Shown here: one piece after another, positions 2,236 to 47,433 of the stretch | Layout of the letters: each line of letters begins with the position of its first letter | How positions within the stretch are numbered: position 1 is the stretch's first letter | Assembly (NCBI GenBank): GCA_947041945.1 | Contig: CAMREV010000002.1 | Coordinates: 1 to 64,000, forward strand | Reading direction: 5' to 3' | Origin: an uncultured Mycoplasmataceae bacterium | GTDB taxonomy: Bacteria > Bacillota_I > Bacilli_A > Mycoplasmatales > Mycoplasmoidaceae | Length of the DNA: 64,000 nt | The notes under the pieces: model-generated | Told to the model about the DNA's origin: nothing | The model's database searches: none | What the model saw: the letters and a program-made list of their open reading frames with translations, nothing else | Made by a program: the position numbers and the translations under genes

Positions 2236-3465
2236 ATGAATAAAAAAATAAAATTTAGTTTATTAGGAACATTAATACTTAGTTCAAGTCTTGCTATGGC
2301 TTTACCAATTGTTAGTTGTTCAGCAGCAAGCACACCTGAACCAACACCAACAAAAACTTTAACAGTTGATCTTGGTAATTCAGCTATTGATGCAACAAAA
2401 GCTATCACTTCATTATTTAATGCAAAAAAAACTTTTCAAGAGCAAGAGAATTTATTAGCTGGATGAACTGCTGATGCACAACTTGATGCAAGCATTATTA
2501 CTGCAATTAGAAAAAATATAAAATTCACAGATGATATTGGCGCGCCTGTTGAATATGTTTATGCTGTTGCTGGAATATCATTTTCAAAATCATTTGCACC
2601 TCTAATTTCTGGTTCTCCAACAAGTACTGCACAGTTAAAAATTATATTTACAAAAGAATATTTATCTTCTGCTAATACATTTATTGAAATTGGTAGTTTA
2701 GGTAATCCTGTAGCACCAACAAATCTAACACCAACTCTAAATAATTCAACAAAAGATGCAACAAGTGCTTTTAAAAAATTATTTGATGCAAAAACAACTT
2801 TTTATGAACAAAAAGATTTACTAGCTAGTTGAGCGATTGGTAAACAAGTTGATCCAACTGTTTTTGAAGCTATCAAAAATACAATAACATTTGTTAATGG
2901 TACTGCACCTATTTCTTTTGATGTTGCTGTTGATAGAATAGAAATATCAAAACCATTTGACCCTCTAACTGCAGGTGTTGCCCCAACTGGCGCTGAATTA
3001 AAAATTATATTTAAAAACGGATATACATCTTCTCCTGAAACAATTATTCCAATTAGTAGTTTAGGATTTGCTAAAGCAATACCATTAGAATTTGATGTTT
3101 TATTGACACCAGAATTGGAGAAGGTTATGAGTAACGGACTTAAAAATGCATTGGCTGCTGCCCCAAATAGAGAAGCACAATCAAAATTATGATGAGACAC
3201 ATTTGTGAAAGGAAATATGAAAGAAATACTTACACAATCACTTAACTCTGCTAAAGATTTTCATTTTACAGAAATTGAAAATAATAATATAATTAATTGA
3301 ATAGATGCTATAGAATCTATTCAATCAGTAGATTTTATTCCTTCATTGATACCAGCAACCGGACTGCCGTTTGAAGAATTTAGTTTAAAATTTAATTTGA
3401 ATTCAAATTATTCAACTACGAGAGTTTTAACTTTTAGAATGAGCAATTTAGGTAATGCTAAATAA
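2236..3465 (+). CDS. Surface lipoprotein with two internal repeats (copy 1)
   Basis: 409 residues. A signal peptide ends in a type II lipobox (ALPIVSC, Cys28), so the mature protein should be lipid-anchored on the cell surface. It contains two tandem related domains of about 110 residues, roughly residues 45-160 and 170-285. Each has the pattern DA-T-A---LF-AK-TF-EQ--LLA-W, then T-AQLKI or TGAELKI, and ends in I-SLG. A third, more divergent segment follows. Four TGA codons are read as Trp. A paralogue of 411 residues follows at 3719 and is close to identical in the N-terminal half. No known family recognised; antigen or adhesin role is inferred from location and repetition. Confidence 0.85.
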
Positions 3466-19391: not shown

Positions 19392-19421
19392 TAAAAAAAT
19401 GTCTATTCAAGACATTTTTTG
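19392..19421 (-). terminator. Terminator of the surface protein gene
   Basis: AAAAAATGTCT/AAGACATTTTTT hairpin. The stop of the minus-strand surface protein (19403-19405) lies inside it. Confidence 0.65.
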
Positions 19422-21781
19422 TTGTTATTTTTATGATCATTTTTTAACTTATTTTTTTTATATTTGTAAAAGAAAATACTGCCCAAACCAATAGTAATAA
19501 ATATTATTGCTGACAAAATTGCAATATTCAATATATTCAGTCCTTCGATAGAAACTTCATTTGATTTTATACTATTTTTGATTTCAAGTATTTTATTTCT
19601 AACAAATTCATTATTTATTTCATTTTCATATTCAATATTTAATTCATTAAATATAAAATCTAAATAATTAAATATATTGTTTGGGTCTTTTTTTATTTGA
19701 GTTCATACTTCTTTTTCAATAAAACTACCATCTATATTATCGTGCGTAATTCCATTAATTTCTGTTGTATTTAATATTTCAATACTATGAAATTTTTTAC
19801 TTTGATCATTTGTAAAAAAGTCATTGTTATTTTTTTCAATATAATTTATTTTAAACATAATATTAAAGTTATTAAGAATGTTTAAATAGTCATTAAAATT
19901 TTTTGTATAATTTGTTTTGTTTGTTCTTAATTTTATAAGAAAATATCCATTGGTATCTTGCTCATTATTTACAATAAACTCTTTGATATTTAAACTGTTT
20001 TTATTTATATTATTTATAAATCTTATTTTATCTTCAATGCTGAAATCACCATTAAAATTATTTACACTATCAATTGTGTTTCATTTTGGAATTGTTGCCA
20101 AAACATAAAATATTCCATTGTTATTACTTGGATTGTGATTTATTAATTCTTTATTTTCAAAAATATTAAAATCTTTTAAAACATCATCGATATTATAAAA
20201 AGTATTTTTTGAGTAATCAAATGCTTCTATTGTATTAAATAAATTGTTTCCAACTCTTTTATTTAAATTTTCTTTTATTTTTAATGCCAAGTCATTATCA
20301 GCAGTTTCCACAAAAGAAACATTTTGCCCATCATTCATTAAAATATCTTCAACATTTGCATCTAAATCAATAGGAATACACTTATCAAATGAATTTTCCA
20401 CATTAATATTAGTTTCAGTAAAATCATTTCTGTAATTTAATGTATATTCTCCAAATGCATCACTTGTTTTTAAGGAACCAGAAATTACTTTTGATTCAAA
20501 GCTTTTTAATTTGTTTTCTATATGATTAATTTTAATATTTAAAGTATTTTTGTTGCTATCAATATTGAAAAAATCATATTCATTTAATAATGAATTTCCA
20601 TTTCAAATGATATAGTCTTTTCCCTCAAAGCCATTGATACTAATATTAGCAATTATTTCATTATTTTTAAATCAACCAATTATTCTTTCATACAATAAAC
20701 TTAATTCATTAATTGAGTATTTTTGATTATCATTTTTTTGCTTAATTATCTTGCTTTTGATTAATCTATCTTGAAGATTATTCATTTCATCATCATTAAT
20801 AAATTCCTTACCATTATTTGATTTGATATAGTCACTAATAAATTTTAATAATTTCAAATCATCAGAAAATTTAAATATACTTTCATAGTTGTTTTTTGTT
20901 AAATCTTCTTTATTTCAAATTCCGGATTCATTATTTGGATTATTTTCTAAATATGGAAGATTAATTGATAGAAATGTTTTGATTATATCTATACTATTTT
21001 TAGAGCTAAATAAATCAATTGAAAAATCTGAATTAAAAACATTACTTTCCTTCTTATTATTCAGATTTTTTTCAGTAGAAATTGTGTAATCAAACCCAGA
21101 AAAATAATTTCAATCAAAACCTTGATTATAAATATGAAAATCTTCTATATGGTTTAATAAATTCGTTTCAAATTTATAGTCCATGACATACTGGCCACCA
21201 ATTTGATTTTCAGTTGATTTCATTTGTTTGAAACTAGATAATAAAAAAACTTTTCAATCAAAGTTGCCAGATCAACTACAATTTTTAGCATGTGTCTCAC
21301 CATAAACTGCATTAAACTTTTGATCCAATTTTGTTTTCTCAGTAATAAAAAATTTATCAGATTTTAAATATTTTGTTTGTTCTCCTAATTTTTTTCCAAA
21401 AGGATTTTCATCATTATTTATTTCACCAATTAATTTCAATAATAGATCATCATCAACTTTGAAATTTAAATCCTTATTTATATTAAATGCATTTAAGTAT
21501 TCTAGTGTTTTCTGACCTCCATTATTTCATAATGTAGTGTAATTTCTTGCGCTTCAATTGATTAAATCTTTTGCTAATATAAAATTATTATTGTACATAG
21601 ATATATCTTTATTTAAAATATCTTCAACAATAGTGGTTTTACTTTGATTTGAATCTTTTTTATTTTGCTTACTACTCATTTGTTTATTAATGATGCTATT
21701 CGATCCACTAAATGCTATCATTGAACACAGCGATAGCGTTGAAATAGCAACAATTCTTTTTTTGTAATTTTTTAATTTCAT
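19403..21781 (-). CDS. Large surface protein with signal peptide and C-terminal anchor
   Basis: 792 residues. A basic N-terminus and hydrophobic segment (about 9-28) form a signal peptide or anchor without a lipobox. The body is Asn/Asp/Lys/Ile rich, and a hydrophobic helix close to the C-terminus (about 752-772) is followed by a Lys-rich cytoplasmic tail. This is the topology of mycoplasma surface adhesins or nutrient-binding proteins anchored at both or one end. I recognise no family. ATG 21781 has GGAG just upstream. It is divergent from the MFS-like gene. Confidence 0.8.
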
Positions 21782-31054: not shown

Positions 31055-32371
31055 ATGCAAAAGAATATATTAATTATAAAACCTTATGGCTCTGATAATA
31101 ATTCATTTTTACAATATATAGAAAACGAAACAAACTTTAAATTATTTTGTGTTGAGAAGTTAGAAGAAGACTTTAAAGGTGTAATGATTTTTTGTAGATC
31201 AAAAGATGATTTAAAAAAGTTTAAGAACAAGAATAATGAATATGTTATTAATTTTCAATTAGAAGATGAAAGTCATTACAAACAATTAAATATAGATATA
31301 AAAAAATTCATTTCGAGAGAAAAGAATATTTTATCTGTTAAGTTTTTATTCAATGAAAATATTCTAACTTTAAAAATAGTTACCAAATATAATTACAAGA
31401 TATGTGGTTTTGTTAAAAATATTTTAGATAATTTTGATCAAATTCAAAAATTAAACTCAGCCATAAGAGTTAAGAATTGTGGTGTTAAATTAGAAAATTG
31501 TATTTCAATTGATGAGTTATGAAAATTTTCTAAAAATATTGTAATACTTAATGATTGTAAAAAAAGCATTAAAGATGTAAAAAATTTAGCTATTGGAGAA
31601 TTTGACTTAATTCACAAGGGGCATGAAAAATTATTGAAAGAAAAAAACTTATCCATACTAACATTTATTCACAATCCTAATAAGAAACATTCAATATTCA
31701 ATGATAATTATAAAATCAATCAATTAAAAAAATTAAACTCACATAAAATTTTCATTTATGATATTTCAAAAGAAAATATTTCAGCGAAAAAATTCATAGA
31801 AACATTCTTATTAAAAATTAATCCAAAAAAAATAATAGTAGGTTCTGATTTTAAATTTGGTCATAATGCAAAAGGGAATATAAATTCATTAAAAAAATAT
31901 TTCAGTGTTGAAATAATAGAAAGAGATGAAAACTATTCAACATCAAAAATTAAAGATCTAATCTTAAAAAATAAATTTAATGATGTAAACAAAAAACTAT
32001 GTCATGACTTTCTATTTGAAGGATTAATAGTAAGAGGAAAACAATTGGGAAGAACGCTTGGATTTCCGACTGCTAATATAATAATGAAAACAGAGTTTCC
32101 ATTTATCAATGGTTCATATTATTCAAAATCAATAATAAATAATAAATTTTTTGATTCAATGACTTTTATTTGTTCAAAGAAAAATAATGCAATTTTAATA
32201 GAAACATTTATCTTTGATTTTAATCAAAATATCTATGGAAAAAAGATGCAAGTTATTCCTTTGAAATTTATTAGAAAAAAAGAAAAATTTAAAAATATAG
32301 ATGAATTAATATGTGGAATAAAAAGGGATGAATTAAAGGCTAAGGAATTTAAAAATATTAATAAAAAATAA
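31055..32371 (+). CDS. ribF: Fusion of a TruB-like domain and RibF (FAD synthetase/riboflavin kinase)
   Basis: 438 residues in one frame. Residues about 175-438 are RibF: AIGEFDLIHKGHEKLL with HxGH 187-190, VGSDFKFGHN, then the flavokinase signature GKQLGRTLGFPTANI and GSYYSK. It makes FMN and FAD. Residues 1-165 look like shrunken TruB: the start ILIIKPYGS, the position of GTLDPFATGVL occupied by KLEEDFKGVM, and SAIRVKNCGVKLENCISIDEL-like end (compare LRRT-VG-F-LEDAI-LEEL). The catalytic Asp position is Glu, so pseudouridylation is doubtful. truB and ribF are normal neighbours in Firmicutes. Confidence 0.85.
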
Positions 32372-46508: not shown

Positions 46509-46811
46509 ATGTTTGCAATATTTGAAACTGGCGGAAAACAATATAAAGTTCAAAAAGACGATATTATTTACGTTGAAAAACTTGAAAAAAACGAAGGCGA
46601 AGTAGCTAAGTTTGATAATGTTTTAATGGTTGATGGCAAATTTGGAGCACCTTTTATTAAGGGAGCTAGTGTTACTTGCAAAGTTGAAAAACAAGGAAAA
46701 CAAAAAAAAATTAACATCATTAAACATAAAAGATATAGCAGAATGCTAAAGAGAAAAGGTCATAGACAAGCTTATACTAAACTTTCAGTAGTAAGTATTG
46801 ACGCTAAGTAA
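46509..46811 (+). CDS. rplU: 50S ribosomal protein L21
   Basis: 100 residues. [18 protein letters not shown] start and KRKGHRQ--T end as in the family. Binds 23S rRNA. AAGGAG precedes ATG. The 130-bp leader has a short GCTAT/ATAGC hairpin (46440-46460) that might be part of an L21 leader; not certain. First gene of rplU-prp-rpmA. Confidence 0.97.
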
Positions 46812-46815
46812 GATT

Positions 46816-47433
46816 ATGATTAACATCAAGTTATATAAAAATGGATTTGTAATAAATGGCCATGCTGAATATAATGATCATGGTAAAGATATTGTTTGTG
46901 CAGGTGTTTCGGCAATATCTCAAGGATTTATTAATAGTTTTAATAAAGATGAAATTAGTGTTTTGAATGTTTCTGAAGAAGGGGAAATTATCTTTACTTT
47001 AAAAAAAGAAATGAACCCAGACATCTTAAACATAATAAGCTCTCAATTAAAAACAATTGCAATTGCATATCCAAAAGAAATCAACATAGAAAGCTATAAT
47101 GATTTTTTGGAATTAGAAAGGAAATTAAAAATGAAAAATTTTAACAAAAACATAAATTTAAACTTACAACTTTTTGCTTCAAAAAAAGGTGTGGGTTCAA
47201 CTAAAAATGGTAGAGACTCTAATCCTAAAAATCTTGGAGCGAAACTTGGAGATGGTCAGTACACTAAATCAGGCCAAATAATTTATAGACAAAGAGGAAA
47301 TAAAATTTATCCTGGAACTAATGTTGGACAAGGTAAGGATCATACTTTATTTGCTAAAACAGAAGGTACAGTTAAATATTCTAGCTTTGGAGATAATAAG
47401 AAAAAAGTTAGTGTATTTCCTCTTGAAAAATAA
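46816..47433 (+). CDS. prp: Prp cysteine protease in frame with ribosomal protein L27
   Basis: The frame that starts at ATG 46816 encodes Prp (YsxB) for about 105 residues: [19 protein letters not shown] gives catalytic His16 and Cys28, 12 apart as in the family. No stop separates it from L27: the sequence runs [14 protein letters not shown] into [11 protein letters not shown]. The whole ORF is 205 codons. Prp removes the N-terminal extension of L27 in Firmicutes by cutting before ASKKG. L27 may be made from its own start at 47131, as part of the fusion, or both. ATG 46816 is 4 bp past the rplU stop. Confidence 0.85.
47131..47433 (+). CDS. rpmA: 50S ribosomal protein L27 with Prp-cleavable N-terminus
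   Basis: 100 residues if started at ATG 47131, which has AAAGGA (47117-47122) 8 nt upstream. The extension ends LNLQLF before [15 protein letters not shown], the site cut by Prp in Firmicutes; the exposed N-terminus then reaches the peptidyl-transferase centre. It is in the same frame as the Prp gene with no intervening stop, so a Prp-L27 polyprotein is also possible. C-terminal [11 protein letters not shown] is typical. Confidence 0.9.

Follow-up and report, generated by a model that had tools for sequence, protein, structure and literature searches.

How does a bacterium come to encode the protease Prp and its substrate, ribosomal protein L27, in one uninterrupted open reading frame, and does such a frame represent an evolved polyprotein or the loss of a single stop codon? 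We addressed this question for a locus in the 64,000-nucleotide stretch of DNA analysed here (the window), which belongs to a low-GC (25%), mollicute-like genome in which TGA encodes tryptophan, as its core genes are intact when read with code 4 and interrupted when read with code 11. From an ATG at 46816 the frame runs for 205 amino acids to a stop codon at 47431-47433, with zero stops in translation under either code 11 or code 4. The ATG of rpmA, the L27 gene, at 47131 is exactly in phase with the prp ATG, 105 codons downstream ((47131-46816)/3), so that protease and substrate share one open frame, as would be expected of a self-processing polyprotein. Translation and domain matches both agree with the initial annotation, which had described this fused frame. 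An upstream TTG at 46798 was considered as the start of the frame and rejected, because the ATG start of relatives aligns with 46816. The gene order is rplU, prp, rpmA and then nusA, infB and rbfA, with prp starting 4 nt past the rplU stop, and the features of the locus are as follows:

46509..46811, + strand: rplU, encoding ribosomal protein L21, which opens the conserved rplU-prp-rpmA operon; TIGR00061 L21, 108.7 bits against a cut-off of 43.7
46816..47124, + strand: prp part, 103 codons to the site of the presumed ancestral stop; Pfam PF04327, E 1e-15; His16 and Cys28; weak start
47115..47123, + strand: Shine-Dalgarno region serving the internal start of rpmA; calculated energy with the 16S rRNA tail, -10.2 kcal/mol
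47125..47127, + strand: codon TTA, at the place of the prp stop TAA of in-phase relatives in the junction comparison
47131..47433, + strand: rpmA, encoding pre-L27 of 100 aa from its own ATG (47131); TIGR00062 L27, 114.6 bits against a cut-off of 90.35
47131..47175, + strand: L27 leader, fusion residues 106-120, of the kind removed by Prp

Both parts of the frame are complete. Pfam Peptidase_Prp covers fusion residues 1-89 (58.1 bits against a cut-off of 27, profile positions 1-89 of 90), and a sequence search with the Prp part led to the solved Prp structures 4PEO/7KLD and 7JVS. In the Staphylococcus aureus enzyme, SaPrp, residues Gly21, His22, Asp31, Cys34 and Ser38 have been described as required either for activity or to hold the active conformation (PMC9405229). 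These correspond to G15, H16, D25, C28 and S32 in the window, with identical spacing: the His and Cys are 12 apart, a Gly precedes the His, and an Asp and a Ser stand three before and four after the Cys. H16, D25, C28 and S32 are invariant in an alignment of 42 sequences, which upholds the catalytic His16 and Cys28 that had been proposed. The best NCBIfam Prp equivalog score, 61.8 bits, did not reach the cut-off of 133 (NF011129), but these equivalogs are narrow subgroup models and the Pfam domain of the window's Prp is complete. These data suggest that the Prp part is a Prp ribosomal-processing cysteine protease (PF04327, MEROPS C108), predicted to cleave L27 before ASKK.

The downstream part matches Pfam Ribosomal_L27 over fusion residues 121-200 (E 4e-32), and its L27 is of the long type, scoring over the TIGR00062 cut-off and carrying a leader that ends in LQ(L/F)F before A-S/H-K-K. 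Within the 12-residue cleavage site the cut is predicted between residues 120 and 121 (F120/A121); Q118, F120, A121, S122, K123 and K124 are each invariant in 42 sequences. That L27 had kept its cleavage site and its internal ribosome-binding site and ATG was thus confirmed, both in the sequence and by Shine-Dalgarno pairing. Each of the two genes is single-copy, and no second copy of either was found in the genome searched.

The only evident difference from related genomes at the junction lies in one codon. Equal phase of prp and rpmA is not special, as it is common in Bacilli, in which the two genes are often separated by one stop near the ribosome-binding site of L27. In approximately ten members of the family, one of them from the same genus, the Prp stop is a TAA exactly six bases 5' of the L27 ATG, beside the Shine-Dalgarno bases; junctions in relatives read AGG-AAA-TAA-ATT-ATG or AGG-AGA-TAA-CTT-ATG, whereas that of the window reads AGG-AAA-TTA-AAA-ATG. 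The same-genus relative (G001) encodes a Prp of 94 aa, a TAA and then L27 in the same phase, and in its junction, GAG-GAG-TAA-ATT-ATG, the TAA stands where the window has TTA. In a further member of the genus (G002), prp and rpmA are separate and in different phases. The genus comprises three genomes and the fusion is found only in the window's own (G000); the arrangement is not conserved in the lineage. Restoring the stop would give a Prp of 103 residues, within the 94-106 of relatives. From the aligned junctions, a single A-to-T change, TAA to TTA at 47125-47127, would explain the fusion.

To place this difference in a wider context, we surveyed prp-rpmA pairs in other genomes. Among 95 genomes of the family, no other match spans both parts without a TAA or TAG. 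The class sample (395 genomes), the phylum sample (392 genomes, largely overlapping the class sample) and the named loci were searched using a profile in which Prp and L27 were joined (A1). Neither sample contained an uninterrupted prp-rpmA pair, and the several dozen in-phase pairs in them each have at least one stop. A stop lies between the genes at all 80 named loci (45 TAG, 30 TAA and 5 TGA) and is the only in-frame stop within 40 codons at 71, which are thus one base change from fusion, although these counts do not estimate how frequent equal phase is, because the top-scoring loci rank high through Prp and L27 both matching in one frame. The order-wide L27 family search, with its best 150 matches listed, could not on its own exclude fusions. 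A contig scan with a single protein as query gave no match, and a later scan used an alignment; in viral contigs, a pattern for the same junction gave no match. The literature searched contained no account of Prp fused to L27. Four pairs separated only by TGA (G380, G467, G435 and G541) were considered as fusions and rejected: TGA is a stop in these genomes, whose long neighbouring frames are free of TGA. A candidate second fusion in G049 (locus L032, 898-1542, - strand), an L27 open frame of 217 aa, was rejected as a leaderless L27 (MSSKKG...) whose C-terminal extension brings it to 214 aa in all, and the query used gave no Prp match in that genome.

The expectation in the initial annotation that related species have separate genes was therefore correct: every other in-phase relative examined has a stop between prp and rpmA. 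Judged against these sequences, the missing stop exceeds chance expectation, and its retention among all other equal-phase pairs examined suggests that the stop is under selection and that losing it is usually disfavoured.

The annotation had also proposed that a fusion would fix the dosage of protease and substrate. Pairing with the 16S rRNA tail is predicted at -1.7 kcal/mol for the prp start, against -10.2 kcal/mol for the internal rpmA start, and these values argue against a fixed 1:1 ratio. Across 21 junctions, including that of the window, the means are -2.1 for prp and -8.0 for rpmA, and rpmA is the stronger in 20. Because the rpmA start is predicted to exceed the prp start greatly in strength, just as it does in relatives whose genes are separate, the supply of L27 stays uncoupled from that of Prp. 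By this calculation 47131 should give rise to most of the L27, in unfused form, with the fusion expected only as a minor product, as scarce as Prp itself.

In gene order, catalytic residues, leader and cut site, the locus is the same as the rplU-prp-rpmA operon of those Bacilli that have Prp (MEROPS C108) and long L27. It also shares with that operon the weak prp start, a strong ribosome-binding site for rpmA where prp ends and, in many cases, the phase; it differs from all the others examined in having TTA where they keep a stop. We think that the locus probably reflects a recent and tolerated loss of the prp stop (TAA to TTA), giving a low-abundance fusion that is cut by Prp, and that the change was nearly neutral or slightly harmful and was fixed by drift. 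According to this explanation, for which we infer the translation, cleavage, abundance and neutrality of the fusion, a single base change in one mollicute lineage would have turned the prp stop, in phase beside the rpmA ribosome-binding site, into a sense codon. Ribosomes from the weak prp start would then read on through L27 to make a low-abundance Prp-L27 protein of 205 aa, while the strong internal start at 47131 would still supply most of the L27, unfused. Prp would cut this protein, whether in trans or in cis, at the site that is normally used, to yield mature L27. As Prp removes everything before ASKK, mature L27 would be identical whether it came from the fusion or from the free precursor, and because the leader is discarded anyway, the fusion should cost L27 little and leave a scar on Prp only: a 17-residue tail that finishes with the P side of Prp's own substrate. 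Fixation probably occurred by drift in a small genome. If stop loss were neutral, however, in-phase relatives should have lost the stop many times, yet none of those examined has. Since stop loss is normally selected against, either this lineage differs somehow, or the base is wrong or not fixed.

The latter case, in which TTA is a wrong consensus base or a captured minority polymorphism and the species has separate prp and rpmA genes like its relatives, seems to us unlikely, although it carries real weight. The fusion was seen in one assembled sequence and hinges on one base, which lies in an AT-rich stretch with A-runs in a single draft assembly (12 contigs, 90% complete). The stop kept by all in-phase relatives gives stop loss a low prior, and scans for oddities over many genomes favour the finding of errors. 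Against an error, phase and spacing are preserved exactly, the change being a substitution, and wrong substitutions are rare in assembly consensus. Moreover, coding sequence makes up 90% of the 64-kb window and no gene in it is obviously broken; the ten neighbouring genes scanned are whole or nearly so and match their own families along most of the sequence, so that gross faults in the assembly can be discounted.

An alternative reading of the fused frame is that it has evolved as a polyprotein, in which Prp and L27 are made as one chain that frees itself in cis and thereby couples the supply of protease to L27 synthesis; the Prp product tail NLNLQLF could, on this reading, serve as an inhibitor built into the protease. 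One chain does hold both the full set of catalytic residues and a cleavage site that is unchanged, and the last Prp strand ends at residue 93, which leaves approximately 27 residues before the cut site, probably enough for it to reach the active site. We modelled the fusion with AlphaFold2 on a 42-row alignment of read-through translations (A2). The Prp and L27 domains were confidently predicted, whereas the junction was disordered (pLDDT below 50 at residues 112-116 and 121-137; pTM 0.49), with no ordering of the linker and no sign of the cut site being docked in the protease, so that the model speaks neither for nor against cleavage in cis. In a Foldseek search with the whole fusion model, L27 alone appeared among the top 50 matches. 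Proteases joined to their substrates are known from phages: in the C/Nu3 arrangement of phage lambda, the gene for the capsid protease contains a nested in-frame start for the scaffold protein, so that, as in the window, a protease is joined to its substrate and a free downstream protein arises from an internal in-frame start. The lambda proteins are unrelated, however, and their arrangement is established and functional, whereas that of the window is known from a single genome, in which it arose through the change of one stop codon. The eukaryotic ubiquitin fusions UBA52 and RPS27A likewise have a ribosomal protein as the C-terminal part, freed by proteolysis, but their N-terminal partner is ubiquitin and separate enzymes make the cut, whereas here the partner is the protease itself. 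An evolved polyprotein is improbable in our view: the fusion occurs in one genome with sister genomes lacking it, the strong internal start uncouples dosage, and no change is seen beyond the lost stop. It is similarly doubtful that a ribosomal protein of a bacterium is here synthesised in one self-processing polyprotein with the protease that matures it, alongside an unfused form from an internal start. Of the initial annotation's suggestion of a self-processing polyprotein plus free L27, a fusion accompanied by free L27 from the internal start survives as the straightforward reading, but the one-codon difference, the absence of the fusion from both other members of the genus and the low confidence of the model around the cut site give no sign that a polyprotein has evolved.

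It is hardly credible that the fused frame is silent, with the prp start hardly used, L27 made wholly from 47131 and no fusion protein of note; the weak Shine-Dalgarno pairing of prp beside the strong pairing of rpmA would fit this, but maturation of long L27 requires Prp (PMC9405229) and this is the sole Prp found in the genome, the prp starts of relatives are equally weak, and the short distance from the rplU stop suits translational coupling.

If the stop loss is real, the fusion is a natural experiment on the prp-rpmA boundary. In same-phase Bacilli, a single base change would usually suffice to fuse protease and substrate, yet no other genome examined has taken that step. From a lineage that had lost the stop one could learn whether Prp functions when its tail ends in the product of its own cleavage, and whether Prp is required in free form. 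For work on Prp, a proposed antibiotic target (PMC9405229), such a lineage would in addition supply a cis construct that is ready for use.

Other observations concern the rest of the window and L27 in other mollicutes. RibF, at 31055-32371 (+), has FAD synthetase at residues 175-284 and riboflavin kinase at 317-432, preceded by an N-terminal extension of approximately 170 aa without a Pfam match. Two further frames, 19403-21781 (-), of 792 aa, and 2236-3465 (+), of 409 aa, had no Pfam match at E 0.01. L27 of Mycoplasma pneumoniae is listed as leaderless in a review's table of leaders (PMC9405229); in PDB 7ood, chain u, it has 104 aa and from residue 9 aligns with the leader of the window's L27. 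In the family, class and phylum searches, many genomes of one genus (g7) and one family (f7) gave an L27 match without a Prp match, and several lineages of mollicutes may have lost Prp jointly with the leader of L27.
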